A stretch of 64,000 nucleotides of DNA from Phycisphaerae bacterium (GTDB lineage Bacteria; Planctomycetota; Phycisphaerae; Sedimentisphaerales; Anaerohalosphaeraceae). The translations under genes and the position numbers were made by a program. Every line of letters starts with the position of its first letter. Within the stretch, counting starts at the first letter, position 1. The notes under the pieces were generated by a model. The model was not told the DNA's origin and did not search any database. It saw nothing but the letters and a program-made list of their open reading frames with translations. Below are positions 22,819 to 46,651 of this stretch, piece after piece. The stretch spans positions 41,916 through 105,915 of the forward strand of contig JAOUFG010000001.1 in NCBI GenBank assembly GCA_029858345.1, read 5' to 3'.

Positions 22819-22989
22819 AACCAGATAATCCCGCTGTTAAACATTTCAACGGCGCCGGTAAGTAAATTGAACGATGCCGACAGCGGAAACCCTGCGCACG
22901 GACTCCAAAACGCATTTATCTCCTTTCGGCACAGTATTTGCACATACCTCATACACATAAGTTTAGTGTTTTTCGGAAAGACCCGGACT

Positions 22990-23457
22990 ATGAAAAAACG
23001 CATTGCACTCCTGTCAGGGCTGTTGCTGGTCAGTATTGTCGGACAACTCCTGTTGCGGCCGTGCTTAGGCAGTGAAACACGAAATGACGACCTGGCAACT
23101 TTGCCGGATCAGCCGAAAACGCCTGCGCTGATGGACACCAAAGATCTCTTTGAGGCAGAGGAAGAGGATTTCAAATCCGGGGACTTGCAAGGTGATCTTT
23201 ATAAGCAACTGGCAAAGATGATCGCATTTGTGGCGATAATCGGGGCGGGAGTCTGGTTTTACTGTAAAAAATTCTCAGGACGATGGAACCCGGCAAAAGG
23301 TAAAAATATCATCATAACGGAAACCGTCAATCTGGGCCCGCGAAAACACTTGCATATCGTCCAACTCGGCGCCAAACAATACCTGCTCAGCAGCACCCCT
23401 GACAGCATTCGATTATTGGCCGATGTCACCGAGTCGCTGGAGCACAGCCATGAATAA
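22990..23457 (+). CDS. fliO: Flagellar biosynthesis protein FliO
   Basis: Signal segment, TM and FliO core (ITETVNLGPRKHLHIVQLGAKQYLLSSTPDSIRLLADV); precedes fliP. Confidence 0.82.
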   Translation: MKKRIALLSGLLLVSIVGQLLLRPCLGSETRNDDLATLPDQPKTPALMDTKDLFEAEEEDFKSGDLQGDLYKQLAKMIAFVAIIGAGVWFYCKKFSGRWNPAKGKNIIITETVNLGPRKHLHIVQLGAKQYLLSSTPDSIRLLADVTESLEHSHE

Positions 23458-24259
23458 AACAACAAAAATATCCGCATTCCTGGTTATGGGCGGTTTGTTT
23501 TTTCTATCAATCCTGACAACTGCCGCATTCGCCCAAGACGAACCGGCCGGGACGAATACAATGCCCTCGGTACCGGACATTCTCCGGGTTGTGGACAAGG
23601 CCACCAGCGACACCGATACCCAGCAGCCCAACGACTGGAACACCCCTGTCAAACTGGTCGTGCTGTTTACCCTGCTGGCACTGCTGCCGAGCTTGATCGC
23701 GATGACGACGTCCTTTACACGGATCGTCATTGTCCTGGGCTTTGTGCGAAGGGCGCTGAGTACCCAGAATATCCCGCCGAATACGGCAATCCTCGGATTG
23801 GCAATCTTTCTGACACTCTATACCATGGCGCCCACGTTTTATCAAATCAACGAACAGGCGATACAGCCCTATCTGGACGATCAGATCCAGATGCAGGAAA
23901 GCATTGAGCAATCCACACAGATTCTGAAAGAGTTTATGGTCCGGCAGACACGAAAAAACGACCTGGCGCTGTTCGTCAAAATGGCCAAGGTCCCCGTGCC
24001 TGAGAAAGTCACCGACTTGGGGCTGCATATTGTCACACCGGCCTTCATCATTAGCGAATTCCGAACCGCTTTTGAAATCGGATGCCTGATGTTCATTCCC
24101 TTTTTGCTGTTGGATTTGGTCATCGCCAGCGTACTGCTCAGTGCGGGGATGATGATGCTGCCGCCGGTGATGATCTCGCTGCCGTTTAAGCTGATCCTGT
24201 TCATCCTTGTGGACGGTTGGGGGATTCTGTCGCAGGGGCTCAGTCTAAGTTTCAAATGA
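23450..24259 (+). CDS. fliP: Flagellar export apparatus protein FliP
   Basis: LLALLPSLIAMTTSFTRIVIVLGFVRRALSTQNIPPNTAILGLAIFLT... Confidence 0.97.
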   Translation: MNKTTKISAFLVMGGLFFLSILTTAAFAQDEPAGTNTMPSVPDILRVVDKATSDTDTQQPNDWNTPVKLVVLFTLLALLPSLIAMTTSFTRIVIVLGFVRRALSTQNIPPNTAILGLAIFLTLYTMAPTFYQINEQAIQPYLDDQIQMQESIEQSTQILKEFMVRQTRKNDLALFVKMAKVPVPEKVTDLGLHIVTPAFIISEFRTAFEIGCLMFIPFLLLDLVIASVLLSAGMMMLPPVMISLPFKLILFILVDGWGILSQGLSLSFK

Positions 24260-24292
24260 AATACAGTACATTGAACTAAAGAGGGCAAAATA

Positions 24293-24562
24293 ATGGATGT
24301 AGATTATATTATTTATCTCGGTCGGCACACAATGGAAACGGCGCTTCTCATCGCAGCACCCATCCTGATCGTATGCATGGCTTCCGGAATCATTGTTTCG
24401 CTGTTTCAGACCGTCACCCAAATCCGCGATATGACCCTGACAATGGCCCCCAAACTCGTAGGTGCCGGCCTGACGATATTGATTTTCGGAAACTGGATGC
24501 TGCAGGTGCTAATCCGGTTTACAACAGAAATCTTTTCGCAGGTCCAGTCCTACGGACAGTAA
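24293..24562 (+). CDS. fliQ: Flagellar export apparatus protein FliQ
   Basis: 89 aa; SLFQTVTQIRDMTLTMAPKLVGAGLTILIFGNWML. Confidence 0.95.
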   Translation: MDVDYIIYLGRHTMETALLIAAPILIVCMASGIIVSLFQTVTQIRDMTLTMAPKLVGAGLTILIFGNWMLQVLIRFTTEIFSQVQSYGQ

Positions 24563-24568
24563 CGGTCG

Positions 24569-25321
24569 ATGGAATTTCTCACCGGTAAAATGCTTGGCTT
24601 TGTGCTGATCCTGACACGGATTGGCGCTTTTTTTTCATCTTCACCGCTGTTTAGCTGGCAAGCGATCCCGGTTCGAAGCAAAGTCATCATGGCCCTGCTG
24701 ATCAGTGCGTTCTTTGCGGCAATCACCCCCTGTCAATTCACATCCGAAAATATGGCATTGATTGAAGTTATCCTGCTGATCGCCAATGAGTTCCTGTACG
24801 GACTGGCAATGGGCCTTGTCGCCTATTGCCTTTTCGCCGTCGTGCGTGTTTCCGGACAGATCATCGCACGGCAAATGGGGCTGACGATGGCCAATATTCT
24901 CGACCCGTTCAGCGGCGAACAAGGCCAGCCGCTCGGCATGTTGCTGGAAATCATCTTTATCTTTTTATTGTTTGCAACAGGCAGTCATCATCTTCTCATT
25001 CAGGTTCTCAGCCGCAGCTTCCAGGCGTTTGAGCCGGGACTCACGCCTGACGCCAAGGTGCTGGTCACAAGTGTTCTGAAAGCCAGTTCGTCCCTGCTGA
25101 TGCTGGCTCTGCAGATGTCCGCCCCGCTGCTGGCAGCGTTTTTGCTCTTGATGGTCGTACTGGCCTTTATGGCCCGCGTCGCACCGGAAGCCAATATCCT
25201 GTTTCTCAGTATGCCGTTGCGAGTCGGGTTGGGATTGGCAATGCTCGCCGTGTTTATCCCGTTTTTAACCAATTTCATCACCACATTTACGACTTGGCTA
25301 AACCGCTTAATTCCCCTATAA
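24569..25321 (+). CDS. fliR: Flagellar export apparatus protein FliR
   Basis: FliR/SpaR family pattern; fliQ-fliR-flhB order. Confidence 0.94.
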   Translation: MEFLTGKMLGFVLILTRIGAFFSSSPLFSWQAIPVRSKVIMALLISAFFAAITPCQFTSENMALIEVILLIANEFLYGLAMGLVAYCLFAVVRVSGQIIARQMGLTMANILDPFSGEQGQPLGMLLEIIFIFLLFATGSHHLLIQVLSRSFQAFEPGLTPDAKVLVTSVLKASSSLLMLALQMSAPLLAAFLLLMVVLAFMARVAPEANILFLSMPLRVGLGLAMLAVFIPFLTNFITTFTTWLNRLIPL

Positions 25322-25330
25322 GGAATATCG

Positions 25331-26389
25331 ATGCCCGCCAATGATAACAAAACTGAACAACCGACGCCGCGGCGGATAGAAAAAGCCCGTGAGGAGGGCC
25401 AGGTCCCGCAGAGCCAGGAAATGCTCTCCGCGGCGACACTGCTTGCATTGGTCGGTTCGACGGCGCTGCTGGGCCCGTGGTTTGTCAAGTGGAGCCAGAA
25501 TCAGATTCGCGACGGCCTGTCCTGTCAGACCGCGGTGCTGGAAAACAGCCAGGCATTTAACGCCTTTATTAACCAGAAAATCATCGACGTCCTCCTGGTC
25601 ATCAGTCCCTTTTTGCTTGTCCTGATGGTCGCCAGTATCGGGGCGAATGTTCTGGTCAGCGGCCTGAATTTCTCCACAAAGGCCCTGAAACTCAAAACCG
25701 AACAACTGAACCCCATGACCGGGCTGAAAAATCTCTTTTCCGGCGAAAATCTGGTCAAGCTGCTGTTTTCGATTCTCAAATTGATTCTCATCGGAACGAT
25801 TGTCTGGATTTATTTGAGAAAGAGGATTCCGACATTGGCCCATTTGCAATGGACACCAGCCGGCAGTCTGCTCGGCGAGATCGGCGGGCTGATTTTGGGG
25901 GTCGTCCTGCAGATCACCTTGGGGCTGGCCGTCATTGGCATCGGCGACTGGCTGTATCACAGATGGAAACATACAGAACGATTGAAGATGAGCAAGCAGG
26001 AGGTCAAGGACGAACACCGCGACACCGAAGGGGCGCCGGAAATCAAATCCAAGATCCGGCAAAAACAATATCAGGCCGCCATGCAGCGAATGCTGCAGGA
26101 TGTGCCCAAGGCCAACGTCGTACTGGTCAACCCGACCCATGTCGCCGTGGCGCTGCGCTATGAGCCGAAAACCATGCAAACGCCCATCGTCGTCGCCAAG
26201 GGCGGCGATCATATGTGTGAAAAGATCAAGGAGATTGCACGCTTCAACGGCGTCCCGATTATCCGCCGGCCCGCGCTGGCCCGCGAACTCCACGCCACCG
26301 TCAAACTGGGCGAGCCCATCCCGGAAAAACTCTTCACCGCCGTCGCCGAAGTCCTCGCCCTGCTCTACCGCATCCGCCACAGGGGCTAA
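25331..26389 (+). CDS. flhB: Flagellar export switch protein FlhB
   Basis: KTEQPTPRRIEKAREEGQVPQSQE; autocleavage motif VNPTHVAVALRY (NPTH). Confidence 0.97.
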   Translation: MPANDNKTEQPTPRRIEKAREEGQVPQSQEMLSAATLLALVGSTALLGPWFVKWSQNQIRDGLSCQTAVLENSQAFNAFINQKIIDVLLVISPFLLVLMVASIGANVLVSGLNFSTKALKLKTEQLNPMTGLKNLFSGENLVKLLFSILKLILIGTIVWIYLRKRIPTLAHLQWTPAGSLLGEIGGLILGVVLQITLGLAVIGIGDWLYHRWKHTERLKMSKQEVKDEHRDTEGAPEIKSKIRQKQYQAAMQRMLQDVPKANVVLVNPTHVAVALRYEPKTMQTPIVVAKGGDHMCEKIKEIARFNGVPIIRRPALARELHATVKLGEPIPEKLFTAVAEVLALLYRIRHRG

Positions 26390-26599: not shown

Positions 26600-27367
26600 A
26601 TGAAAATGGATAAACAGATCAGTATCATGCCCTGCCTTGACATGCAAAATGGCCGGGTCGTTAAAGGGGTTCATTTTGTCGACATTCGTGATGCGGGCGA
26701 TCCCGTGGAGTGCGCGAAGGCCTATTGCGCCGCTGGTGCCGACGAGCTGGCGCTTCTGGATATCACCGCAACCGTTGAAAACCGGCCCACGATGCTCGAG
26801 GTGGTCAGCAATGTCGCTGAGGTTACGACCATTCCCTTTACTGTCGGAGGGGGCATTTCTGATGTCGCTTCGGCAGCAGCGGTTTTAAACGCAGGAGCCG
26901 ACAAGATATCAACCAGCAGCGCCGCCTTTCGCAAGCCCGAGATCATCAAAGACATGGTCGCCGAATTCGGCCCGGAAAAGGTGACCGTGGCGATTGATGT
27001 GGATGTGAATGAATCAATGCCGTCCGGCTATGAAGTCTATATTGACGGCGGCCGAACACCGACGGGGGCTGATGCCATCGAGTGGGCCAAAAAAGTCGAT
27101 GGCTTTGGGATTCCGGTCATACTGCCAACCAGCAAGGCCGGAGATGGCGCCCGGACGGGATACGATCTTCCCGTGATCAGGGCGATGGCCGCTGCCTGTT
27201 CGGCCCGGATCGTCGCCTCAGGAGGCGCCGGAAAAATGGAAGATTTCTATGACGCGGTGCAGGCCGGGGCAACAATTCTGCTCGCCGCATCCGTCTTTCA
27301 TTTCCACATGATTGATATACCCCAGTTAAAAAACTACCTGCGGGATAAGGGCTTAAACGTCAAGTAA
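26600..27367 (+). CDS. hisF: HisF-like imidazole glycerol phosphate synthase cyclase subunit
   Basis: PCLDMQNGRVVKG, LLDITAT, GGGI, VAIDVDVNES, DGARTGYD, ASGGAGKMEDF, AASVFHF; no hisH nearby. Confidence 0.85.
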   Translation: MKMDKQISIMPCLDMQNGRVVKGVHFVDIRDAGDPVECAKAYCAAGADELALLDITATVENRPTMLEVVSNVAEVTTIPFTVGGGISDVASAAAVLNAGADKISTSSAAFRKPEIIKDMVAEFGPEKVTVAIDVDVNESMPSGYEVYIDGGRTPTGADAIEWAKKVDGFGIPVILPTSKAGDGARTGYDLPVIRAMAAACSARIVASGGAGKMEDFYDAVQAGATILLAASVFHFHMIDIPQLKNYLRDKGLNVK

Positions 27368-27500
27368 AGCATTCGCGTCACGAATTAACAAAGCCGTGAC
27401 AGTGACGGCCTGTCCTGCCGGCCGGTCCGCCATAGCTGGCTTCTGCGTAGCTTTATGCGAAGCAAAATAACGAAGAAGGAAGCTCACAGAGCGAAACAGA

Positions 27501-27612
27501 ATAACTGCTAACTGCTAACTGATAACTGATAACTGCTAACTGCTAACTGATAACTGATAACTGCTAACTGCTAACTGCTAACTGATAACTGATAACTGCT
27601 AACTGATAACTG
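27501..27612. repeat. Heptanucleotide tandem array 1: 16 units of (A/C)TAACTG
   Basis: Read directly: exactly 16 contiguous 7-mers, only position 1 varies. Confidence 0.97.
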
Positions 27613-27818
27613 TCTATCCCATTAATCATTATTCATTTCAAAGCCCCTTCCAATCTCAAAGCCCCATCGGGGCGAAAGAAAAAATCCGCGTGGGCATGGT
27701 CCACCCTACAAGACTGGGGCCGAACACTATTGTGTCTGACCCCTTTTAGTTTTCCTTTCCCCTGTGCTTCCCGCCTCGCAACCCGCAGCACACCATTCTG
27801 AACACCTGCCTTTTAATC

Positions 27819-27930
27819 TACGAACTACGAACTACGAACCACGAACCACGAACCACGAACCACGAACTACGAACTACGAACCACGAACTGCGAACCACGA
27901 ACTATGAACTATGAACTATGAACTACGAAC
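27819..27930. repeat. Heptanucleotide tandem array 2: 16 units of (T/C)ACGAAC with TATGAAC/TGCGAAC variants
   Basis: Read directly: 16 contiguous 7-mers over 112 bp. Confidence 0.97.
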
Positions 27931-28014
27931 TAAAAGAAACCTTGCCAAAATGGATGTACTGCGGTTAGAGCACTTTAATCTTTTCTGTTCGCATTTAGGC
28001 CGTCGTGAGGACAA

Positions 28015-28077
28015 GGTCCACAAGGAAGAGAGCACAGCGATATTGGAATATCGCGAGCATCTCTGACACCGTGGACC
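28015..28077. other. Nested inverted-repeat element (possible structured RNA or repeat)
   Basis: GGTCCAC (28015-28021)/GTGGACC (28071-28077) encloses perfect GCGATATT-GG-AATATCGC (28037-28054). Confidence 0.6.
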
Positions 28078-28300
28078 GAAGCCGCAACAGGCATAAAGCG
28101 AACACGAAAAATTAAATTGCTCTTCCGTACGAGGGCTGCAACGCCCTTCCCTCTGGTCAAAAGCATGAGACCCTCTTTCACGATTGTATTTCCCGTGAAG
28201 AGTTGCAGATCGATCAATTAGAACCCAACCAGTAAAAGAAGACCACAACGGGGACCGCCGATGGCAGCCGCCATTTAAGTAACCGAACATTCAAATTGTC

Positions 28301-28342
28301 CCTCAAGCCTCAAGTCTCAAGTCTCAGGCCTCAGGACTAAGG
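28301..28342. repeat. Short heptanucleotide array 3: CCTCAAG CCTCAAG TCTCAAG TCTCAGG CCTCAGG (ACTAAGG)
   Basis: Read directly: 5-6 degenerate 7-mers. Confidence 0.85.
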
Positions 28343-28510
28343 TAAATGTTAAATCCCGGCGGGGATGGTAGTGTCGACTGGGGTCTGTCGCAAATGAGAC
28401 CCCCGGCCAAGCAAGTGAAGGTCGAACAAAAGGTGTAGGGATCGCGGAAATATCACCCGCATCCCCCGTGGCAAGCCACGTTAAAGATAAAACAAATAAA
28501 CTGTCACCAC

Positions 28511-28633
28511 AAAAAGGGTACATCCGTCTTCGCTCTTCGAGCTACTCCGGACAGGGGTACAACCCGGCTGTCGGCAGAATCCCGATTTATCGGGACAGGC
28601 CGTACCGGTCCCCCTTTTGCTCATGACGATGGC
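28511..28633 (+). repeat. 123-bp direct repeat, copy A
   Basis: Near identical (3 mismatches seen) to 31263-31385; contains CCCGATTTATCGGG hairpin. Confidence 0.95.
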
Positions 28634-28752
28634 GATTAAAATTTTTGGATACTTTTTGTTTTGTTCTTGACTTTTGGGGCAAATTCCAATTAAGAAAAGA
28701 CTGTATTATTTAACCGGTGATTATTGACAGGCGAACTTAAGGAGAGAACAAA

Positions 28753-29685
28753 ATGGACTACAAGGCATTTATCGAGGAGCAGGTTAATGAACTCAAAGAA
28801 ACCGTCGGCGATGCGACGGCGATCAATGCATTGAGCGGCGGGGTTGACAGTTCCGTTGTGACCGTATTGGCACACCGGGCGTTGGGCCGGCAGCTCAAAA
28901 CGTACTTTATTGACAGCGCATTAATGCGTCAAGGCGAACCGCAGCGGGTTGTCGATATGTTCGCCAAGATGGGAATTCCGGTGGGCCTGGTTGACGCGAA
29001 GGCCGAATTCCTGGCCGCCCTTAAGGGATTGACCGATCCGGAGGAAAAACGTCACGCCGTGACCGATACCTTTTACGCCAGGGTGTTCGGCAGGCTGGTC
29101 AAAGAGACCGACGCTACATTTCTGCTTCACGGGACAATATTGACTGATATTGAAGAAACCGTGGCCGGAATCAAGCGTCAGCATAATATTCTTGAGCAGC
29201 TCGGCATTGATCCGAAAGAGGCGTACGGCTACGCGGTCCTTGAGCCCTTGAAAACGCTTCGCAAAGACGGTGTTCGCGAGGTGGCAAGGGTTTTAAATCT
29301 GCCGCCTGATATCACCGAACGGATACCCTTTCCGGGACCCGCACTGGCGGCCAGAATTGTGGGAGAGGTGACCGAGGAGCGGCTGAAAACCGTGCGGTCG
29401 GCTACCGCTATTGTGGAAGAGGAACTGGGCAACAGCGGAGCGTTTCAATACCTGGCCGTTTTGCTGAACGATAAGGCGACGGGAATCCGCGACGGGAAAC
29501 GGCAGTTCGGTGAGATTGTTGTGGTGCGGTGTATTGAAAGCACGGATGCCCGCACGGCGACCGTTACGGAGCTGCCGTGGACGAAACTGCACCGGCTTTG
29601 TGAACGCATTACGCAGATCGACGGCGTCAACCGCTGCCTCTATGATTTAACGCCGAAACCTCCGGCAACCGTTGAATATATCTGA
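28753..29685 (+). CDS. Stand-alone GMP synthase-type ATP-pyrophosphatase (GuaA C-terminal half, no GATase domain)
   Basis: PP-loop LSGGVDSS; GTILTDIEET; FPGPALAARIVGEVTEE; C-terminus YDLTPKPPATVEYI (cf. KPPATIEWE of GuaA). Confidence 0.85.
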   Translation: MDYKAFIEEQVNELKETVGDATAINALSGGVDSSVVTVLAHRALGRQLKTYFIDSALMRQGEPQRVVDMFAKMGIPVGLVDAKAEFLAALKGLTDPEEKRHAVTDTFYARVFGRLVKETDATFLLHGTILTDIEETVAGIKRQHNILEQLGIDPKEAYGYAVLEPLKTLRKDGVREVARVLNLPPDITERIPFPGPALAARIVGEVTEERLKTVRSATAIVEEELGNSGAFQYLAVLLNDKATGIRDGKRQFGEIVVVRCIESTDARTATVTELPWTKLHRLCERITQIDGVNRCLYDLTPKPPATVEYI

Positions 29686-30029
29686 GATCAGTTCTTGCCG
29701 AAGTTGGCCCGTTTTTCCTGCCGGGTAAGTGTATTGCTGATGGGGATTCGCCGCTCCATGCCGGTGCGATGTTTTGTGCGGGGTTGGGAGCGAAGAGGAA
29801 ACTATAGATAGCCGGGTTCCGCGCCTTCGGAAAAGTTCTTGACATTTGGGGGCGAATCCCATTGATTAATATCCACTAATTGTAGTTTTAAGTTGTGGAG
29901 ACGGATTATATTGTACGCCTCCACCCTTCCTCCTATGCTCTCTGAGCTGCTGAGGACAGGTCGGCTCCCTCCCTTGGCAGGGCAGGAGCTTTTAGGTGAT
30001 GTTAACTTTAAGTATAAGGAGAATTTAGC

Positions 30030-31160
30030 ATGTCTGAGAAGAAACAGGATTTGGCGGGCCCGGGGATCGGGGATTACAACGAACTGGAAAAGATACTTCC
30101 GGCCGATTACACGTCGGCGCTGACACCCAAAGAAACACAGATTGCGACGTATGCGGTCAAGGACTACATCGAGGAGCACATGTGCAGGGAGCTGAACCTG
30201 ATACGGGTGACGGTACCGTTGATCGTGGACATAGAAAGCGGGGTCAATGACATGTTGGACCGGGACGGGTCGCGGACGCCGATACAGTTTCATATCAGCA
30301 ACGACCATGACAAGCACCCGGTCGATGCGCAGGTTGTGCAGGCGGCGACGAAGTGGAAACGGATGGCGCTGAAGCAATTTGGGATGCAGGTCGGAGAGGG
30401 GCTTTTGACGGATATGCGGGCGGTGCGGAAAGATTATTTCCTGGACCATGACCACAGCGCGTACGTGGACCAGTGGGACTGGGAGCTGGCGATTACAAAG
30501 GAGCAGCGGAACCTGGGATTTTTGAAGGAAGTTGTACAGAAGCTGTGGAAGGTGCTGAAGGGGGCGGAGCGGCACGTGCAGGGACTGTTCCCTCAGTTGA
30601 AGACGGACTCGTACCCGGACCTGCCGGAAGAACTGACGTTTATTCATGCGGAGGATATTTTGGCGAAGTTTCCCGACCTGCCGCGGAAGCAACGGGAGAC
30701 GGCGATTTTGCAGGAGTATCCGGCGGTCTTTATCTACGGGATCGGCTGGGTGCTGGAGGACGGGTATCCGCATGAGATGCGGGCGGCCGATTATGATGAC
30801 TGGGTGACGGAGACGACGAGCGAGGACGGACGGCCAATGCACGGGCTCAACGGTGATATTCTGGTGTGGAACCCGGTGACAAAACGGCGGCATGAACTGA
30901 CGTCGATGGGGATTCGGGTGACATCGGAGACGCTGCGGCAGCAGCTTGAGATTAGCGGGCAACTTGACTTTTTGAAGCTGCCGTATCATCAGGCGATCGT
31001 CAATAATGAGATCCCGCTGAGTATTGGTGGGGGGATTGGGCAATCGCGGACGTTTATGACAATTTTAAAGAAGGCTCATATTGGAGAGGTCAGTGCGACG
31101 GTGTGGCCAAAGGTGCTCAAGGACATGTGCAGGAAGAAGAATATCCATGTGATCGAATAA
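30030..31160 (+). CDS. asnA: Aspartate--ammonia ligase (asparagine synthetase A)
   Basis: AsnA blocks: KWKRMALKQFGMQVGEGLLTDMRAVR, SAYVDQWDWE, DYDDW, HGLNGDILVWNPV, ELTSMGIRV, SIGGGIGQSR. Confidence 0.95.
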   Translation: MSEKKQDLAGPGIGDYNELEKILPADYTSALTPKETQIATYAVKDYIEEHMCRELNLIRVTVPLIVDIESGVNDMLDRDGSRTPIQFHISNDHDKHPVDAQVVQAATKWKRMALKQFGMQVGEGLLTDMRAVRKDYFLDHDHSAYVDQWDWELAITKEQRNLGFLKEVVQKLWKVLKGAERHVQGLFPQLKTDSYPDLPEELTFIHAEDILAKFPDLPRKQRETAILQEYPAVFIYGIGWVLEDGYPHEMRAADYDDWVTETTSEDGRPMHGLNGDILVWNPVTKRRHELTSMGIRVTSETLRQQLEISGQLDFLKLPYHQAIVNNEIPLSIGGGIGQSRTFMTILKKAHIGEVSATVWPKVLKDMCRKKNIHVIE

Positions 31161-31262
31161 GTCGGATGGTGATTTTGTTTTTACTGTTTTTTCTGGTTTG
31201 AAGCATGGCGAGGTTGCCTTTTTGGCAGAGTACCTCGAGGAAAAACTAGAAAACTTAGGCGC

Positions 31263-31385
31263 AAAAAGAGTACATCCGTCTTCGCTCTTCGAGCTACGCC
31301 GGACAGGGGTACAACCCAGCTGTCGGCAGAATCCCGATTTATCGGGACAGGCCGTACCGGTCCCCCTTTTGCTCATGACGATGGC
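31263..31385 (+). repeat. 123-bp direct repeat, copy B
   Basis: Near identical to 28511-28633. Confidence 0.95.
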
Positions 31386-31402
31386 CGACTGAAAAAGGGG
31401 GG

Positions 31403-32902
31403 TTACCACAATTGCTTTTGGCCGGCGGGTTCTTCTTTGTGCTTGCGGGTTCCTGAGGACACGATTTCCTTAATCCTGAATTTTGATTTTTTTCTGCAGG
31501 TCCCGGGACACTCGCCGGTCCAGCAATACAGACACAGTTTTTCTCTCGGCAGGCCGACGGCCTCAACCATGTCCTCAACCGTTTGATAGCGCAGGGTCGT
31601 TACGCCGATATCCTGCGCGATCCATTCAATCATACGTTTGTATTTTGCGGAACGGTGATCGATGTATTCAGAAACATCCTCCAGGTCGTGACCCTCAAGA
31701 CTGCGAATCGCTTTTCGCGCCGCCAGTTCATGAATCGAGCGGGTGGACAGGTTGAATCGGCACGGGAACATCAGCGGCGGACAGGCCGGTCTGACATGAA
31801 TCTGCTTGGCGCCGCAATCCCACAGTTTCTTGATCGTGAAGTTCTTCAACTGCGTCCCCCTCACGATGGAATCCTCGCACACGACAATGCTGTTGTCTTT
31901 GATGACCTCTTTGACGGGGATCAGCTTCATTTTTGCGATATGGTCGCGCGTCTGCTGAGACGGCGGCGTATAGCTCCTGCCGTATCCCGGCGTATATTTG
32001 ACAAGCGGCCTTCGGAACGGCTTGTTGGAGGCCATGGCATACCCCAGACCGTGAGCAAGCCCCGAATCCGGGATCCCGGAAACGACGTCGACCTCGATAT
32101 CCGCGTCGTGCCTGGCCAGCGCCCGGCCGCATTTTTCCCTGACGATCTCGGCGTTGACGCCTTCATAGTTCGATGCGGGAAAGCCCGTATAAATCCACAG
32201 GAACGTGCAAATCTGATTCGTTCTGGGGGTGCCCGGTTTTCGCTGCACGACACCGTCTTCGTTGATGAGAACGATTTCTCCCGGATCCAGATATTTCACG
32301 ATTTCAAATCCAATGTTATGAAAGGCGGCTGTCTCGCTGGTGACCGCCCAGGCGTCATCTTTTTTTCCAATCACCAGCGGGGTATAGCCAAAACGGTCCC
32401 TGGCGGCAAAGATGCCCGTTCGATTTAACAGCAGCAACGAGCATGAACCGTCGATCATATCAAACACTTTCTCGATGCCGTGCACCAGGTCCGTTCCCTG
32501 GTTGATGAGTTTGGCAACGAGCTCGGTTGTGTTCACAATGTGTTTGCCGACTTCACTGAACGAGATCCCTTTTTTCAGCAGGGTCGCGACCAGCGCTTCG
32601 TTGTTTTCGATAATGCCGTTGGTGGCCAGGCAGAAAGGCCCGAATTTCGAATTGAGATAGATCGGCTGCTCATCCAGGGCGCTGATGACGCCGATTCCTT
32701 TGTTGCCCCGCATGCGTTGATAATCATCGAAGAATTTCGACTTGAACTGACTTTGACTGAGCGCGTGAATTTGACGTGTAAACTCGGTTCCCAGAACAGC
32801 CATGCCGCCGTATTCCGTGCCCAGATGCGAGTGATAGTCGGTGCCGTACAGCAGGGTTTCGGCACAGTCGTTCTTTGACACAATTCCAAAAATACCGCTC
32901 AT
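31403..32902 (-). CDS. PurF-like amidophosphoribosyltransferase with substituted glutaminase site
   Basis: PRPP motif VVCEDSIVRGTQLKN, SFC-like C-terminal Cys cluster (EKLCLYCWTGECPGTC), N-terminus MSGIFGIV in place of MCGIFGI; RBS AGGAGG. Confidence 0.88.
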   Translation of the reverse strand: MSGIFGIVSKNDCAETLLYGTDYHSHLGTEYGGMAVLGTEFTRQIHALSQSQFKSKFFDDYQRMRGNKGIGVISALDEQPIYLNSKFGPFCLATNGIIENNEALVATLLKKGISFSEVGKHIVNTTELVAKLINQGTDLVHGIEKVFDMIDGSCSLLLLNRTGIFAARDRFGYTPLVIGKKDDAWAVTSETAAFHNIGFEIVKYLDPGEIVLINEDGVVQRKPGTPRTNQICTFLWIYTGFPASNYEGVNAEIVREKCGRALARHDADIEVDVVSGIPDSGLAHGLGYAMASNKPFRRPLVKYTPGYGRSYTPPSQQTRDHIAKMKLIPVKEVIKDNSIVVCEDSIVRGTQLKNFTIKKLWDCGAKQIHVRPACPPLMFPCRFNLSTRSIHELAARKAIRSLEGHDLEDVSEYIDHRSAKYKRMIEWIAQDIGVTTLRYQTVEDMVEAVGLPREKLCLYCWTGECPGTCRKKSKFRIKEIVSSGTRKHKEEPAGQKQLW

Positions 32903-33132
32903 AGTTATGCCTCCTGACGAAATGGTTGGCTGGAATAAAGCCCGTTTTTCACAAAAACCCGGCTTTCGGCGGTGATTATATCAGATGAACGGTGAAAATG
33001 CAAAGAAAACTAGGAAAACCAGGAACAGCCCTATTCAATTGATTATCGATTATTGTTGATTGGTGATTGGCCCTGGCCGAGGGAGATTTGAAATTCTTGA
33101 AGTTTTGGGGGATTTGTGTATAGTAGGCGTCG

Positions 33133-34593
33133 ATGAACAGACAGATACCAACCAATCCAGGTGCTCCGGTGCTGTCCCGGCCGGAGGCGGTTTTTATCGC
33201 CGCGGCGGTGACGCTGCTGGTCGGGCTGCTGACGGGGGTCCATGAGAATCTGCTCGATATCCTGTGGGTGTGTGCGTTTTGCCTGGCCGGAGCGGCGACG
33301 CTGATCTGTGTCGCCGCGAAAAACTCCGTCGATCTGGTCGGGTTTGTGCCGATCGTCTGGGTGCTGACGCTGCTGCGGATTGCGCTGCAGGCAATGACCG
33401 CCCGTAAAATCATCGGACACCACTCAACCGGAATCCTGATCGGCTCCGTCGGCAAGGTCCTGACGACACCGGCGCCGCTGGGAGCGGTCCTGACGGGGTT
33501 GGCGTTGGTCGCAGTGCTGGCCATCCTTATCTTCGGGGCGTGTCAGCGTATGACGAGCGCCGCCAACAGCTATATCCGGCAGGTTCTGCCCCTAAAACGG
33601 ATCGGCATCGAAACCGATCTTCGGATGGGGCTGATCGATGAAAGCAACGCCCAAACACTGGCCCGAAAAATCGCGACGGAAGTTCGCTTTTTTTTCGGGA
33701 TGACCGGCGTCAGCATGTTGATGCGCGGCGAAGCGGCCATTTCTGTTTTCACCCTGCTGGGGTGCCTGGTCACGTTAGCATCGGGGAATTCTTTTGAAAC
33801 CATCTCCCGGGAAGGGCTGCTTGGGCCGGTCATGGCATTCGGGGCCTTTTCACTGGTTCCTGCGGTGATCGTAGCTGTTTCCTGCGGCGGCCTGATGAGC
33901 AAGGAAACACTGGCACTGACGCCCGAAGAGGCCGGGCAGGAACCGGTGGCAACGAAGAAAATCACGCTCATCAGCCAGGAAACCGGGGACGCCGAGGAGA
34001 TCGAGCTGCTGAACCCGGACTTTGTGAACCATGCAGGGGTCGATGAACGGATCGTTGAGTTTGAGCCGCCGCGTGAAGCGGCCGCCGCAACCGCATTCCC
34101 GGCGTGCGGCAGTCCGGCGGAATACTATAAACAACTCGGGCACATGATCACCGCGGTGAAAACCCAGCCCCGCGCGGCCGTGCTCGGTTCCAAAGACATT
34201 CGTTCGCTGCCGGTGACCGTGGCGGTGAATATCGCAATCGGTCTGGCCCAGCAAAAACAGAAAGTGCTTATGGTGGATACGGACACGACGCGAAATGCGA
34301 TGGCACAGGTCTTTGAACTCGATCCGGTATTGATGCAGAAAAAGATACAATCCAGCTGCCTGGAAAATCTTTCGGCATGCAGCGTTGGAATCGATAAGAT
34401 TGACCTGCTGCTGAAAAAGAAAAAGATCACCGAGCGCTTTGATACGCTGCTGATTTATGCCCCGGAGGCCGATGCGGCTTGCCTGACTGAAAAAGCAGGC
34501 GGTTCGTGGGAGGTCTTTTTCTTCGGCGATGCGGCCCCGGCCCAAAGCGGGGGCATGCATGTCATCCCGCAGATTCAATCGATTCTAAAGTGA
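33133..34593 (+). CDS. Chimeric protein: FlhA/FHIPEP-like membrane domain fused to degenerate BY-kinase/MinD-like P-loop domain
   Basis: QRMTSAANSYIRQVLPLKRIGIETDLRMGLIDESNA aligns with the FHIPEP signature region of FlhA; C-terminal AEYYKQLGHMITAVKTQPRAAVLGSKDIRSLPVTVAVNIAIGLAQQKQKVLMVDTD resembles BY-kinase/CpsD without the GKS/T. Confidence 0.72.
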   Translation: MNRQIPTNPGAPVLSRPEAVFIAAAVTLLVGLLTGVHENLLDILWVCAFCLAGAATLICVAAKNSVDLVGFVPIVWVLTLLRIALQAMTARKIIGHHSTGILIGSVGKVLTTPAPLGAVLTGLALVAVLAILIFGACQRMTSAANSYIRQVLPLKRIGIETDLRMGLIDESNAQTLARKIATEVRFFFGMTGVSMLMRGEAAISVFTLLGCLVTLASGNSFETISREGLLGPVMAFGAFSLVPAVIVAVSCGGLMSKETLALTPEEAGQEPVATKKITLISQETGDAEEIELLNPDFVNHAGVDERIVEFEPPREAAAATAFPACGSPAEYYKQLGHMITAVKTQPRAAVLGSKDIRSLPVTVAVNIAIGLAQQKQKVLMVDTDTTRNAMAQVFELDPVLMQKKIQSSCLENLSACSVGIDKIDLLLKKKKITERFDTLLIYAPEADAACLTEKAGGSWEVFFFGDAAPAQSGGMHVIPQIQSILK

Positions 34594-34600
34594 TGGGGGT

Positions 34601-36679
34601 TTACAGCATTGCGATGCCGGCAAATTGCTGCTGGATCATCGACAGCATTTTTTCGAGCCGTGCGTACTTTTCGATCATTCTTTGTTCGACTCTTTGGAGC
34701 CGGCGCTCTTCGTCCTCGATACGCCGTTCCATCGAGGTGATCCGATCCTCAATACTCTCAATCGAGATGGGAACCCGGCCGCTGCCTGTTTTGAGCAAAT
34801 CATCGACCTGCTCATAAAGATTACCGGCAAAGCCCTGACGAATATTTACCGTCACTTCCATCGTCCGACCGGTCTGGCTCGTATCCACCACTAATTGCAA
34901 ATCAAACTCAGGATACAAGGGCTTGTATGAAGAATCCAATTCATCGTTACCATAGATATAGTTGCCGTCAATTATGGCACTGCGTGCATCTTCCCAGTCC
35001 TCATCGGCTTGCTTAATGAGCGCCGAAGTAATGACACCGCCGCCGTCAACGGTCACCTGAACATCAAATGCCCCCGCCGTGGTATAGCGGCTGGCACCAT
35101 AGAATTTGACATAAGCCGAATCGACACCACTTGTCGAACCGGTCTTTTGCGCTCCCATCAACAACAGTACCCCAAGGTAATCGTCCACGACCGCTTCATC
35201 AAATGTATTCTCATCCAATTCCAGCATGCCGTCGGCACCGACACTCAGCCCAATATCCCGCGGATTGAGAAAGCTGTCCGATGCGGTAAAGCCCACTGCG
35301 TTTGTGATCAGGGGCGTTTGTAAAAGAGAGCGGATACTGGTCAGCGTATATTCGGATGAGAGAATTCCGGCCGTGTTCGTTTGTTCATCATAGGTCGTCT
35401 TTTCATCGACATACATAATAACCGTATTGTACGCTTCGATCATCGCGTTCATTTTTTCTTTGAGCTGTTCGGTGTTGCGGGTCAGGTTGATCTCAACGGA
35501 CTCATACGTACCGGGATTGTCCGGGTCTTCGGTGTTCCCGTGCAGGCTCAACGTAACGCCCGCGATGACATCATCAACCGTGTTTGTGCTGCGGCTGATC
35601 CAATCATCCGCTCCCGGCGGATAATCATCCACCTTGAAAAGCGAATCCTGAGCCGATTGTGTTTCACTGAAGGTCGCCGCAGCCAGTGACGCAATATCGG
35701 CCGTGACTGCGCCGCCGACGGTGGATTGGTTGAATGTCAGCGAGGCCGTCTGGGTAGCGGTTTCAAAATCCAAGTTCAATGTCATCGAGCTGGCGCCGAC
35801 GGTTTTGTCGATTATTTTAAACTGGCCATCCTCAAATGTTACCTTGGCGGTATCGGCGTAAGCGGTTTCGATTTCACCAATCAAATCCTCCAGTGTTGAA
35901 TGCTCGTTGATCACAAAAACCGTATTTACGGGAGTTCCGTCATGCTGATTGCCGCTGATCGTAACCTGTGTTACATCAGCGAAATCAATGCTCTGTCCGG
36001 AAAAGTCATCCAATTCAGAGATTTTTGTGGTACCGCCGGCGTTTTCACCATTGGTTTGCAGTATTGAAGCAGCGGTGTGGACCTCGGCGCTGCTGGTATC
36101 GATGGTAATCTGATAGTCCGAACCGCTGTTTCGACCGCTGAGCACCAAGTGGTAGATACCATCCGCCCCGTCGTCATATTTCAGGATACTGGCGGTAACG
36201 CCGGGATTTTCGGAATCGTTATTGATCAGACCGACTAAGTCCTCCAAGGTGGTGTCCGCAGTCGTCTGAATCGTCATCTGCTGATGGTCATACGAGAAAA
36301 GAAACGTCCCTTCACCCACATAGGACGTTGCATATTTGAAGCCGTCGTGCACCCAGCGATCTGCCGTTGCCAATTGTTTAATCTGGACGGTATGGCTCCC
36401 TTCGTAGGCCTGGGAATTGGCCGAAACCGTCAAGGCACTCTCGTCATTGCTGCTTGCCTGAAACGACCGAAGCTGACTGGCGTCGGCCAGATCGTCTAAC
36501 GATGATTTATAGGTAAACAGCTTGCTTTGAAGCTCTGTAACCGCTGTTTTCTTTTCGTCGAATTTAGTAACATTGGTTGTGTAAGCAGCCAGACGACGGC
36601 GTTCGACAGCCATCAACTGATCGATCAATGCCTTTGTATCTATTCCGGTTGACAGCCCCGGCAGTTGCAATGAACTCAT
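34601..36679 (-). CDS. fliD: Flagellar hook-associated protein 2 / filament cap FliD
   Basis: N-terminal LQLPGLSTGIDTKALIDQLMAVERRRL; C-terminal coiled coil SIEDRITSMERRIEDEERRLQRVEQRMIEKYARLEKMLSMIQQQ. Confidence 0.93.
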   Translation of the reverse strand: MSSLQLPGLSTGIDTKALIDQLMAVERRRLAAYTTNVTKFDEKKTAVTELQSKLFTYKSSLDDLADASQLRSFQASSNDESALTVSANSQAYEGSHTVQIKQLATADRWVHDGFKYATSYVGEGTFLFSYDHQQMTIQTTADTTLEDLVGLINNDSENPGVTASILKYDDGADGIYHLVLSGRNSGSDYQITIDTSSAEVHTAASILQTNGENAGGTTKISELDDFSGQSIDFADVTQVTISGNQHDGTPVNTVFVINEHSTLEDLIGEIETAYADTAKVTFEDGQFKIIDKTVGASSMTLNLDFETATQTASLTFNQSTVGGAVTADIASLAAATFSETQSAQDSLFKVDDYPPGADDWISRSTNTVDDVIAGVTLSLHGNTEDPDNPGTYESVEINLTRNTEQLKEKMNAMIEAYNTVIMYVDEKTTYDEQTNTAGILSSEYTLTSIRSLLQTPLITNAVGFTASDSFLNPRDIGLSVGADGMLELDENTFDEAVVDDYLGVLLLMGAQKTGSTSGVDSAYVKFYGASRYTTAGAFDVQVTVDGGGVITSALIKQADEDWEDARSAIIDGNYIYGNDELDSSYKPLYPEFDLQLVVDTSQTGRTMEVTVNIRQGFAGNLYEQVDDLLKTGSGRVPISIESIEDRITSMERRIEDEERRLQRVEQRMIEKYARLEKMLSMIQQQFAGIAML

Positions 36680-36854: not shown

Positions 36855-39800
36855 TTATTTTCCACTGGCGGCAACGTTCAATTCGGTCGGTGAAAAAGCT
36901 TGGGATGTTTTCGCCAAACGAATCCCTTCGACCAATTCCCTGATCTTTTCCTGAAGTTCAATATGCCCTGCCAGTATATTATCGGACAATAGGTCCTGAT
37001 ACACTCTTAATGCCTCTTCGGATTGCCCGCCGAACAGGTACTGTTGGCCCAGTGCCAACTTTTCTTTCAGAGCAGATGAAGGATCCGTTAATTGTCCCTG
37101 CGGCATTATTTCAGGTCTATCCGCCACTGATTTCAAGCCCGGAGCATCCAACAATTCCCCCTTCAACTTGTCGGCATATTGCCGAAAGATGTCCCCATGA
37201 CAGTCATGATAGGTTTTGGCATGTTTATTAAAAACCGCCACAACATACTCATTGAATCGCTGTTTTCGCAGCAGCGGATCGGCGATTTGGACCAGCTGCG
37301 AACACAAGACGGTATCGGGGTATTGTCGAATCATTCGTTCCAATGCCTGAGCGGTTATGCGGTTCCGCTGGTCGAAGCGAACCGTATTAGTATTCGACAT
37401 CCGACGATAAAAATAACCCGCCGCATCGGGTACCCTGCAAAAGCGAATCTGCATGGCATTTCGCGTGAGGAAGTCAAAATCCTCAACATTATTCAGATTA
37501 CTGAACAGACCTGTCTTTTCGAACATCGTTCTGCGTTTAAGCGAGCCGGAATTAGCAACGGGCGAAAAGGCGTTGTAAAACAAAAACGCCGGAAGTTGTG
37601 AGCTGTCACTGAAATCGTGATAGTCCCACTCAACACCGGTCCGTTTGCCTTCTGCATTCACCAGTGTTATTTTGGAGGGATAGTAGTAATCATACTGCGG
37701 ATTGGTTTGGGCAAAACGGATAAACTGTTCGAGATAATCCGAGGCGATAAAATCATCCGAATCCACTCCCATCACAAATTCACCTCGGGCCTCCTGAATC
37801 GCCCGATTCATGCCAGTTGCAAAGTTACGATGTGTCTGTGAAATAAAACGAATCCTCGGATCATTGTAAGATTTCGCAATCTCTGCGGTTCGATCCGTGC
37901 TGCCGTCGTCCACAAAGATCAATTCAAAATTCTTGAATGTTTGAGACAGAACTGATTCGATGGCATCAGAGACAAAAGCTTCAGTATTGTAAGCAACCAT
38001 GTAAACGGACACAGCAACAGGCGAGTAAGCATCTGGGCGATCTTGGCTCTCGGGGGAATTTTGATCCGCCGGAACAATGGGGTTCGTTATATCAGATTCG
38101 CAGCATTCCACTACAAAAAGAACATTCCTTGCCAGATCCATCTCGCCAGCAATGGTGTGAGCGGATGTGATTGAAGCCTGATTGTCTTTAGCGATTGAAG
38201 ATAGTAATTGCTGTGTTTGTTCAATACTTAAAAAATTCGCTGCTTTTTCGTCAGTCCAATCGGCCGAGTTCTGGTTGTGTTCCATCACTAAAACGCGTTT
38301 ACTTTGCCGGAGTGCTCTTTCAAAAACTGATTTTAAAATATCAAGTGACAATCCTTCACCTACGAGAATATGCAGAATCGTTGTGTCGGCCGGATGGTCT
38401 TGATCCAAATATTCGCTGTAGAGAATATTTTCCGGCTTAAATTCGTGGAAGCCCCACGGTGTTTTATGTGTTACCTCAACCACTTTACCATAGACATAGG
38501 GTGAAATGGAAATATAGGCCTTGGCATGCGTATCCATATTGGATTTAACCACGCCTCCGTTTGTCGTAATGATGTGAAGGGCACCTTGTTGCTGAACGGA
38601 TCGCTGAAAAACGGTATTGAGCCGCTCCTTCCAATCATCCTTGAACCAGTCGTCGATATTAGAGGCATGAATCACCACTCTGCCTGTGAAATCGGACAGA
38701 ATATCCAGATCGCCGCTCATTAAATTAAAAGGCAAATAATAAATCGGGCATTTGCTTAAAATGTTTTGCACACGTAAAAAAGTGTCTTTTGACTGAAGCC
38801 ACCCGTGCCCATAGAAAAAACTGTTGGTATTTGGCACCAGTTGTTTTTGCTCATTATAGCCGCAATCCTGACCGCCGCCGACAGGAACGCGCTCGTTCGT
38901 TCTATAACAGGGCAGCAGACATCGGCAGTTTCGTACGCCTTCCAACAGTTGTGCGTCATGGAACGGCTGAATGTAAGTTTGATACAGTAAGGCACCAAAC
39001 GCAGACAGCCGAGTTATTGTATCCTGCACGATGTGCGGATCGATCGGCATCGACAGATATAAATGCTGATTTTCAAGAGTCAGTTCTGTTTGCTCGAACC
39101 GGGCCGTAAATGTCTCAACGGAACGCCCAAACACACGACTGATAAAATCGCGATGATCAGTTGAAAACGAGATCAATTCAAGGATCAGTTTGGCATATTC
39201 CAATGCGTGAGTATTCAGATCGTAAAAAGTGATTTTTTCCGGATCGACGGAAAGTAGATAGTTCAAACCAGACAACCCCCCCACAACACTAACATAATGG
39301 TCCACCTTTTTAGTCAGCGTCTTTTTCAGTGCAGCGACATTGGCCAGAACACGATCCATCCGATCTGCACTGGCGATGTAGACCTGACCGCGCGATTGAA
39401 ACAGATTTTCCTGACGGTCGGCCCTTGCAAGTATAGCATCAAACATCATCCTAAAATTATGGGCCTTGTGTTTCCAGTCCCATGCCTGAATGGAACGCAA
39501 AATACCCGTTCGCATTTGAGCCAGTATGTCCCTGCGGTTTTTGAGTAAGTCAAGCATATCTGCGATATCATCAACATCGCGTTCAATAAAATATCCGTTC
39601 ACACCCGGAATGATCAGTTCGGGCATATTGCCAACGGACGTTGTTAATATCGGCACGGCACAGGCAGCTGCTTCCAAGCACGGATTGGGGGTTCCCTCTG
39701 TTTGGCTGGCACAAATATACACATCGAGCTGCTGATAAAATTTTCGCATTTGTTCCGGGGTTCGCCATTTATCCTCACGGGCGGCGACTCTCAGTTCAAC

Positions 39801-41195
39801 TCCTGAAAGCCGTTGTACCGCGGGAACGATATAATCGTGATAACCCCGTATATTGCCGTTATTTTTGATACTGCCAGCCCAACCGACAACCAGCGACTCC
39901 GAATCGAGCCGTTTTTGTGGAGTAAAGAAGGTGGTATCCACACCATTGGGCGTATAAAAAACCGGAACCTTAAAATCAGTGGCAAGTTCTTCAAACAGCA
40001 ATTTACTATTGACGAAAACCGCTCCGGCTATTTGTTCAATGACCTGCATCCCGGTTTGCCGCCATTGGCCCTCCATTTCACAATGGGAACAAAGTCCCAT
40101 CATTACCTTATGCCGCTGCTGTTGCAACAGAGGGATAAGCGCCTTCATGTTCGGGTCTAAAAATTGCCGCCAGTAATAGATAACAACCAAATCCGCGGCC
40201 TTGATGTCATCGGCAGTTACAGTACCACTGAATTTTTTAGTGCAGTGATGCGTTTGTTTGAGCGAACGCATCAGATTATCCGTCTTGAAATCGTGCGCCC
40301 AATTTGGCACATCCACAACAAATAGAACATTCGGCTTGTTTTGCCCGGACAAGTCAGGTAAGCTACTTTGAATCACGGCCGGTTTCAACGTTTTCTGAGA
40401 ATCACCGCATGGAAGACCCTGCGGGACCGTACTTTTATCCTGTGCCACAACTAGCAGCATGGGACTGTATAGCTTTGAGCTTGGAAGATGCTCACCAGCC
40501 GCAACATTAATCGTTTTCAAATATTCCACCAACCACCGCATTTCCGGTTTGATGTCATCAGAAGCGGGATCAAGCCAGATATTGTTGCCCATCACAAAGT
40601 CAGCAAAACACAATTGGGCTTCATATTTACGGAAAACACGCTTCAGTTCATCAAGATTCATAATTCGACGATTGTGCGTCGACAGCACCTGCCGCATTTT
40701 CTCCTCTTTATACACAAGCCGGCGAAGTAAGCCCTGATAGTTATCCAGATAGGGACAGCCAATAACGACATAACCGCCGGGTTTCACTAATTGAAAATGG
40801 CGATCAATCACCGCTTCGTAATTTTCAAAATGTTCCACAAATCCAAATGAAGTCACAACATCATATTTCTGTTGAATGGGAGCAAAGAAATCCTGCTGAA
40901 GGATCTGAACCTGATTGATGCCATTATGACGCAAGAGCTTTTCGATGTGCTCACAATGTTCGCTAAGCTCAATCGCCACGGGCTTGTACTCAAATCGCTT
41001 CGCCAGATAACATAAATGTCCACCCGGATAGGCCCCAATCTCGACACAGGTAAAGTTCGGGTTAACAGGCAAGTGTTTTTCGAGAACTGGTGCAAATTCA
41101 TTGCTGTTCACCAGCCATGGCTTAAAGGGCTTATCGCGACCGCAGTCCCAGTATTTCCGATCGGTTAAGTTTTCCGGAACCATTTGTTCAGCCAT
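36855..41195 (-). CDS. 1446-aa multidomain protein: SAM methyltransferase, GT4-type glycosyltransferase, unknown central domains, GT2 glycosyltransferase, C-terminal helical repeat
   Basis: FTCVEIGAYPGGHLCYLA (MT-like); TPNGVDTTFFTPQ...CASQTEGTPNPCLEAAACAVPILTT (GT4); VSVYMVAYNTEAFVSDAIESVLSQTFKNFELIFVDDGSTDRTAEIA...GVDSDD (GT2). Confidence 0.82.
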   Translation of the reverse strand: MAEQMVPENLTDRKYWDCGRDKPFKPWLVNSNEFAPVLEKHLPVNPNFTCVEIGAYPGGHLCYLAKRFEYKPVAIELSEHCEHIEKLLRHNGINQVQILQQDFFAPIQQKYDVVTSFGFVEHFENYEAVIDRHFQLVKPGGYVVIGCPYLDNYQGLLRRLVYKEEKMRQVLSTHNRRIMNLDELKRVFRKYEAQLCFADFVMGNNIWLDPASDDIKPEMRWLVEYLKTINVAAGEHLPSSKLYSPMLLVVAQDKSTVPQGLPCGDSQKTLKPAVIQSSLPDLSGQNKPNVLFVVDVPNWAHDFKTDNLMRSLKQTHHCTKKFSGTVTADDIKAADLVVIYYWRQFLDPNMKALIPLLQQQRHKVMMGLCSHCEMEGQWRQTGMQVIEQIAGAVFVNSKLLFEELATDFKVPVFYTPNGVDTTFFTPQKRLDSESLVVGWAGSIKNNGNIRGYHDYIVPAVQRLSGVELRVAAREDKWRTPEQMRKFYQQLDVYICASQTEGTPNPCLEAAACAVPILTTSVGNMPELIIPGVNGYFIERDVDDIADMLDLLKNRRDILAQMRTGILRSIQAWDWKHKAHNFRMMFDAILARADRQENLFQSRGQVYIASADRMDRVLANVAALKKTLTKKVDHYVSVVGGLSGLNYLLSVDPEKITFYDLNTHALEYAKLILELISFSTDHRDFISRVFGRSVETFTARFEQTELTLENQHLYLSMPIDPHIVQDTITRLSAFGALLYQTYIQPFHDAQLLEGVRNCRCLLPCYRTNERVPVGGGQDCGYNEQKQLVPNTNSFFYGHGWLQSKDTFLRVQNILSKCPIYYLPFNLMSGDLDILSDFTGRVVIHASNIDDWFKDDWKERLNTVFQRSVQQQGALHIITTNGGVVKSNMDTHAKAYISISPYVYGKVVEVTHKTPWGFHEFKPENILYSEYLDQDHPADTTILHILVGEGLSLDILKSVFERALRQSKRVLVMEHNQNSADWTDEKAANFLSIEQTQQLLSSIAKDNQASITSAHTIAGEMDLARNVLFVVECCESDITNPIVPADQNSPESQDRPDAYSPVAVSVYMVAYNTEAFVSDAIESVLSQTFKNFELIFVDDGSTDRTAEIAKSYNDPRIRFISQTHRNFATGMNRAIQEARGEFVMGVDSDDFIASDYLEQFIRFAQTNPQYDYYYPSKITLVNAEGKRTGVEWDYHDFSDSSQLPAFLFYNAFSPVANSGSLKRRTMFEKTGLFSNLNNVEDFDFLTRNAMQIRFCRVPDAAGYFYRRMSNTNTVRFDQRNRITAQALERMIRQYPDTVLCSQLVQIADPLLRKQRFNEYVVAVFNKHAKTYHDCHGDIFRQYADKLKGELLDAPGLKSVADRPEIMPQGQLTDPSSALKEKLALGQQYLFGGQSEEALRVYQDLLSDNILAGHIELQEKIRELVEGIRLAKTSQAFSPTELNVAASGK

Positions 41196-41240
41196 TTGCG
41201 TACTCTTTTTGGTAACTTTTTTTCCATTCTGTTCTTGATC

Positions 41241-43946: not shown

Positions 43947-43999
43947 AGTTCGTCCCTATATGATCATCGGGCGGCAGAAACCCATTCGTCCCTGTCACC

Positions 44000-44341
44000 T
44001 CATTGTGTCTTCCCCGCGTATTTACCCAACGTTCGTAATCCGGTGCGAATCTGTCCGAGTTTGTCCTGTACTTCCTGCCGCTGCGAAGCAATGGTCAGGC
44101 ACAGTTCCCGATACAATTTTTGTATCCGATCCCGCTGCTGCTCAAACCCGGGCCGCGACAATACGGCATTCTGTGTAATTTGTTCGGAAAGCTGCTGTGA
44201 CTCTTCGGCGATTTTCATTGCGGCCTCCAGGTCATACTGCCGAAGCTTTTGGATCTGGCGGTCCATTAATTCCTCCAAATAGGCCGTCATTTGCCGAGCC
44301 GTTTCGTCCGTCATCCCGTTGACTGTCGTATTTTCCTGCAT
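44000..44341 (-). CDS. Small coiled-coil protein, possibly FliT-like flagellar chaperone
   Basis: 113 aa, helical; lies among flagellar/glycosylation genes; family identity not certain. Confidence 0.5.
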   Translation of the reverse strand: MQENTTVNGMTDETARQMTAYLEELMDRQIQKLRQYDLEAAMKIAEESQQLSEQITQNAVLSRPGFEQQRDRIQKLYRELCLTIASQRQEVQDKLGQIRTGLRTLGKYAGKTQ

Positions 44342-44343
44342 CT

Positions 44344-46647: not shown

Positions 46648-46651
46648 TTTT

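Follow-up and report, generated by a model that had tools for sequence, protein, structure and literature searches.

The gene at 33133..34593 (+) of the window, by which we mean the whole 64,000-nucleotide stretch of Phycisphaerae DNA that was analysed, encodes a protein of 486 aa in which an FlhA-like transmembrane (TM) half is fused to a BY-kinase fold that lacks the catalytic motifs. The explanation that we favour, and to which we give an even chance, is that this fusion is a non-conducting FlhA paralogue acting as an accessory subunit of the export apparatus, where it would hold a non-catalytic BY-kinase scaffold at the gate. No paper describing such a fusion was found in open-access full texts.

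The reading frame is unbroken, with no frameshift, and the extent of the gene is supported by the open reading frame itself, by profile matches and by homologues. Just 5' of its ATG there is a sigma-70-like TTGAAG-16-TATAGT (33097..33124, +), which is a consensus match only. The FlhA-like half (aa 13-256; 33169..33900, +) has six TM segments corresponding to TM1-TM6 of FlhA, as indicated by Pfam/NCBIfam, hhalign and structure models, and its TM4 is joined to TM5 by a cytoplasmic loop of the FHIPEP type (aa 137-205; 33541..33747, +). It is followed by a low-confidence linker (33901..34113, +), in which a short beta hairpin is predicted (aa 276-291) and the motif ELLNPDF (aa 291-297) is nearly invariant across the fusion family, and then by the BY-kinase-fold domain (aa 328-465; 34114..34527, +), which was recognized by motif alignment, family profiles and a structure model. 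In a model of the whole protein built from a 16-row alignment (mean pLDDT 79), TM-like helices were placed at residues 17-33, 38-61, 71-94, 115 to ~140, ~201-218 and 230-255; the long FHIPEP helices separate the fourth from the fifth, and a disordered linker and the BY-kinase-like domain follow. An assembly or frameshift artefact was also considered and ruled out, as the same frame and locus occur in many genomes. The host genome (3.0 Mb in 198 contigs, 99.5% complete) contains further matches to the fusion, namely the canonical FlhA and a 236-aa protein with the same C-terminal domain.

A preliminary description of this gene had proposed an FHIPEP-like N-terminal half, and profile searches bore this out. 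The Pfam FHIPEP profile matched aa 32-208 (E 4.4e-15; 55.7 bits against a cut-off of 29.1 bits) and the FlhA profile TIGR01398 matched aa 19-257 (E 4.5e-15), this last match stopping near position 252 of 678 and giving 55 bits, below the equivalog cut-off of 772 bits. When the fusion profile was compared with the canonical FlhA of the order using hhalign, a probability of 99.9% over 256 columns was obtained. Moreover, the best PDB sequence relative of the fusion was FlhA (7amy, 6.7e-12), and the family profile matched PDB FlhA/SctV sequences at 4e-32 to 3e-44. The FlhA/SctV models match the fusion as far as aa 257, with TM1-6 and the FHIPEP loop homologous end to end. The fusion differs from FlhA/SctV in that TM7-8 and the entire cytoplasmic domain (D1-D4), responsible for the docking of substrates and chaperones, are absent from its 486 aa; the earlier observation that the cytoplasmic domain is missing was therefore correct, and the BY-kinase fold stands in its place. 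Structure prediction of the two halves, which had also been proposed, returned this fold for the C-terminal half. For the TM half (pTM 0.80 when modelled alone) it gave six TM-like segments, for which Foldseek found no PDB match, the library apparently being without FlhA TM coordinates, which seem to be too recent for it.

In flagellar secretion the role of proton motor is ascribed to FlhA, whose TM7-8 lie against the neighbouring subunit. The sites of the proton path and charge rings considered here were R85, R94, N137, R147, R154, D158, D199, D208, D249 and Q254, numbered as in Salmonella FlhA, where the proton-path sites are essential (PMC13308203, PMC3139655), and they were mapped on 31 fusions and 11 canonical FlhA of the order. 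All mapped sites are invariant in the 11 canonical proteins, where the N137 site is occupied by Q. None of the 31 fusions has kept D199, D249 or the N137 site; Q254 and R154 are kept in 5/31 each and D158 in 6/31; an acidic residue at 208 is found in 19/31, R85 in 21/31 and R or K at 94 in 28/31. The loop residues P161 and K163 are kept in 27/31 and 26/31, respectively. The fusion of the window (P0001) has kept R85, R94 and R147 and has E for D208, and its loop retains the equivalents of PxK and R147, those of R154, D158, D199 and K203 being altered. Essential proton-path residues of FlhA have thus mostly been lost and, judging from these residues, the proton route and the inner charge rings are broken, with the residues that shape the loop retained.

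FlhA mutants that are dead at R94, D208 or D249 still join the apparatus and are dominant or dominant-negative (PMC3139655), which means that a dead TM subunit can dock. Since the ring core of FlhA is formed by TM2-6 (PMC13308203), we infer that the fusion would dock at the FlhA/FlhB gate, although TM7-8 are gone and its entry into the ring may differ. It had been suggested that the protein is a regulator or decoy of the gate; this fits the degenerate proton path and is so far unproven. Another explanation is that of a dominant brake. The fusion would be a dead protomer that becomes part of the FlhA nonamer and reduces the flow of protons or the rate of export; the timing or the number of completed flagella would depend on its level, and the pseudokinase would serve as a regulatory handle only. 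The lost proton path, the retained docking core and the dominant-negative behaviour of incorporated dead mutants all agree with it. Nevertheless we consider it rather unlikely, because with TM7-8 and the FlhA C ring absent a stable mixing into the nonamer is unproven, and because conservation in the family is highest not in the TM core alone but also in LPVTVAVN, the RNALA.VF stretch and ELLNPDF, from which it follows that the pseudokinase is not just a handle.

Single-sequence matches of the C-terminal half were weak (eps_fam 2e-5; AAA_31 1.6e-4, under the AAA_31 cut-off). Family profiles matched CapB at 5e-11 when built with the standalone relatives described below and BceF at 2.8e-6 when built with the fusions, and Foldseek of the domain model retrieved Wzc, BceF, CapB, VpsO and Etk with probability 1.00, a BY-kinase fold being present in the structure model. 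The fusion shares with these proteins the fold, a weak sequence similarity and a Walker A'-like strand (VLMVDTDTTR in the window, VLLxDxD in the family), but its Walker A glycines and lysine are replaced and it has no polysaccharide co-polymerase part. The loss of the Walker A GKS/T had already been noticed in this protein and proved to be general: LPVT (aa 359-362) stands at the GKST place in the window fusion, LPVT or LPVS is found there in most homologues and LGVQ also occurs among the members examined, and GK[ST] is present in the C-terminal domain of 0 homologues. The Walker B Asp is replaced by Tyr442 and the C-terminal Tyr cluster is absent, the last 30 residues containing at most one Tyr. 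The domain falls under the definition of BY pseudokinases, which have the fold without the catalytic motifs or the Tyr tail (PMC12004946). In this it resembles EcpK of Myxococcus and HfsB of Caulobacter, which lack the catalytic Walker motifs and the Tyr-rich tail and have been proposed as scaffolds for membrane partners (PMC12004946). These two proteins, however, are standalone and serve polysaccharide co-polymerases, whereas in the fusion the domain is attached to the TM part of FlhA, is encoded in a flagellar operon and carries an LPVT signature of its own.

The degenerate domain had been described as BY-kinase/MinD-like, with a link to FlhG/MinD. The first part of this description is upheld by the family profiles and the fold; the link to FlhG/MinD is not supported by descent, as MinD/ParA matches to the domain are weaker than those to BY-kinases. 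Neither the deviant Walker A P-loop of FlhG/MinD nor FlhG-type sequence was found in the fusion domain. With the MinD-type ATPases FlhG/FleN/YlxH the fusion has in common the broad P-loop superfamily and the flagellar context; it differs from them in its marginal sequence similarity (FleN, E 0.2), in being without an ATP site and in belonging to a separate family. That the C-terminal half descends from FlhG, as might be guessed from the gene order flhB-flhA-flhF-flhG in family f5 of the order, was rejected on the grounds that BY-kinase profiles and folds win and that a standalone LPVT relative exists.

This relative, the closest to the C-terminal domain of the fusion, is a standalone pseudokinase of ~200-280 aa with one TM segment, for which we found no description. 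It is conserved in f1, the family to which the window belongs, and occurs in a few genomes of the order beyond that; G001 and G025 carry it although they have no FlhA. The standalone and the fusion C-terminal groups gave a profile match of 99.9%, and the nearest C-terminal matches elsewhere in the phylum are mostly ordinary Wzc-type frames of 700-800 aa. From this standalone relative and these Wzc-type matches we conclude, on sequence and model grounds, that the pseudokinase half stems from the BY-kinase lineage and not from FlhG. The standalone gene adjoins a coiled-coil gene and, at several loci, also two M16 peptidase genes and an SMC gene; at G000:C134:9025-9729 (L003 1360-2067 -; L036 4032-4739 -) its start coincides with the end of a long coiled-coil gene or is close to it.

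The presence of the same domain in a one-TM protein of non-flagellated relatives, in such company, together with the fact that BY pseudokinases act in exopolysaccharide export (PMC12004946), could mean that the fusion serves above all to anchor the pseudokinase in the membrane for a role in the cell envelope or with polysaccharide, its flagellar address being a leftover of its origin. We regard this as quite improbable, since the flhB/fliD address and the company of FlhA are kept across genera and no polysaccharide genes directly flank the fusion, although glycosyltransferases lie beyond fliD.

At most of the loci examined the fusion comes directly after fliO-fliP-fliQ-fliR-flhB, in many cases only a few bases from flhB, and is convergent to fliD. 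The place beside flhB is the classical flhA slot, and it is the position that flhA itself has in the export-gate operon of f5. Proximity to fliD had been pointed out before and is real, fliD (34601..36679, -) being convergent, 7 bp from the fusion stop and kept as a neighbour in relatives; the more telling neighbour, however, is flhB. In the window fliO-fliP-fliQ-fliR-flhB (22867..26389, +) end 6.7 kb from the fusion, with non-flagellar genes in between (26600..32902) that encode HisA-like, GMP synthase C-terminal half, AsnA and PurF-like proteins. This block does not separate flhB from the fusion in the relatives examined.

The canonical FlhA of the host genome, recognized earlier as a second FlhA, has 709 aa and straddles the left edge of the window (match C109:41441-42187 -), and a canonical FlhA is present in most fusion-carrying genomes. 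Family f5 is without the fusion and has retained flhB-flhA-flhF-flhG-sigma factor in the old arrangement (L105). Among the remaining genomes of the order, those examined have the canonical flhA elsewhere, and at annotated loci it adjoins fliN-type and sigma-factor genes. FlhF (TIGR03499, over the cut-off) was found in 7/7 f5 genomes versus 0/73 in f1-f4, f6 and f7, and the fusion is confined to the FlhF-less clade. In the single f5 locus examined (L105) FlhG adjoins FlhF; given this adjacency and the absence of FlhF, FlhG also seems to be absent from the fusion-carrying clade. It would seem, then, that in a large clade of the order flhA was relocated and FlhF, and by position FlhG, were lost.

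Since the entire fusion-carrying clade lacks FlhF and, judging by position, FlhG, the protein may still be linked to FlhG/MinD in function. The fusion might replace FlhG/FlhF as a membrane-anchored, nucleotide-free positioning factor for the nascent gate, the FlhA half being its address label. This would account for the distribution of FlhF and for the restriction of the fusion to the clade without it, but it is unlikely in view of the domain, which is BY-kinase-like and not FlhG-like, and of the FlhF-less genomes of f2 and f7, most of which are also without the fusion.

The search for the same fusion in related genomes, another proposal of the preliminary description, yielded ~34 homologues in one Planctomycetota order and none elsewhere in the class sample (398 genomes), where the remaining matches fell on ordinary FlhA, over its TM half, or on BY-kinase-like frames. 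The fusions have ~480-660 aa and occur in most flagellated f1 genomes and in some of f3, f4 and f7, with a shorter variant in f2 (G283). When 85,462 species genomes were scanned for the pattern with an 8-row alignment, 15 loci were obtained, all in Planctomycetota as judged by their Planctomycetes-type or Phycisphaerae names, the genomes being mostly drafts; a contig scan with a single fusion protein as query gave no matches. The conservation of the architecture exceeds chance, as the ~34 homologues keep it and mostly keep the locus too. All of the tested TM halves (31/31) form one group with a support of 93/100, whose neighbour in a tree drawn with a single f5 row as root is the order's canonical FlhA; the details of this tree are unsure owing to long branches.

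In close pairs dN/dS was 0.13-0.32 for the whole gene, and the fusion is thus kept by purifying selection; for either half the values were 0.09-0.48. Fast divergence, repeated loss and truncated variants are what would be expected of a decaying flhA copy or of a random functionless fusion. Such an origin is hardly credible here, because the frame is open in intact copies, dN/dS is well below 1 in both halves and the new motifs LPVT and ELLNPDF are kept across genera.

Among f1 genomes at least 90% complete, the fusion was found in 17/18 with FlhA and in 0/2 without it. Flagellated relatives without the fusion comprise most of f7 and f2 as well as G004, G021 and G029, and in fusion-less relatives flhB is mostly followed directly by fliD, otherwise by other genes. 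The fusion is therefore not essential for building a flagellum in those relatives and is an accessory part.

The location and the degeneracy of the fusion are observed, and it is its partners and its effect that we infer. As an accessory subunit, the fusion could use its TM2-6 core and loop to enter, or to lie against, the FlhA/FlhB basket below the MS ring, and the pseudokinase would then hang beneath it as a binding platform, by analogy with the proposals for EcpK and HfsB. Such a scaffold might help to place, count or time the assembly of the export apparatus in cells without FlhF/FlhG. The fusion arose once in the order, presumably after the duplication or move of flhA and the loss of flhF-flhG. 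Somewhat more tentatively, it may be an undescribed structural component of the bacterial flagellar export apparatus, in which a proton-dead FlhA paralogue in the gate carries a nucleotide-free BY-pseudokinase scaffold and replaces the FlhF/FlhG control of assembly or placement in this one order. A conserved FlhA copy without the proton path and the docking domain, but with the membrane core and the operon slot retained, offers a natural test of which parts of FlhA assemble and which energize. Moreover, a single polypeptide here connects the fields of flagellar export and of BY-kinase scaffolds, and the fusion is a marker of a clade whose flagella are made with no FlhF.

Some variants of the fusion were observed in relatives. 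G358 retains only the TM half, without the pseudokinase, and G283 and G037 have lost the FHIPEP loop (variant loci L153 1137-2144; L162 4824-6071 (-); L027 644-2080 (-)).

The neighbourhood of the gene has features of its own. At 28753-32902 the window encodes the C-terminal half of a GMP synthase without the glutaminase domain, the ammonia-using AsnA and the PurF-like protein, which starts with MSGIFG and so is without the usual N-terminal Cys nucleophile; these three glutaminase-poor genes are possibly an ammonia-dependent set. Between fliD and a flgL-like gene, at 36855-48226, there are very large glycosyltransferase/methyltransferase and TPR proteins, and this block is perhaps a flagellin glycosylation island. 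Glycosyltransferase-type genes are found beyond fliD in relatives too.
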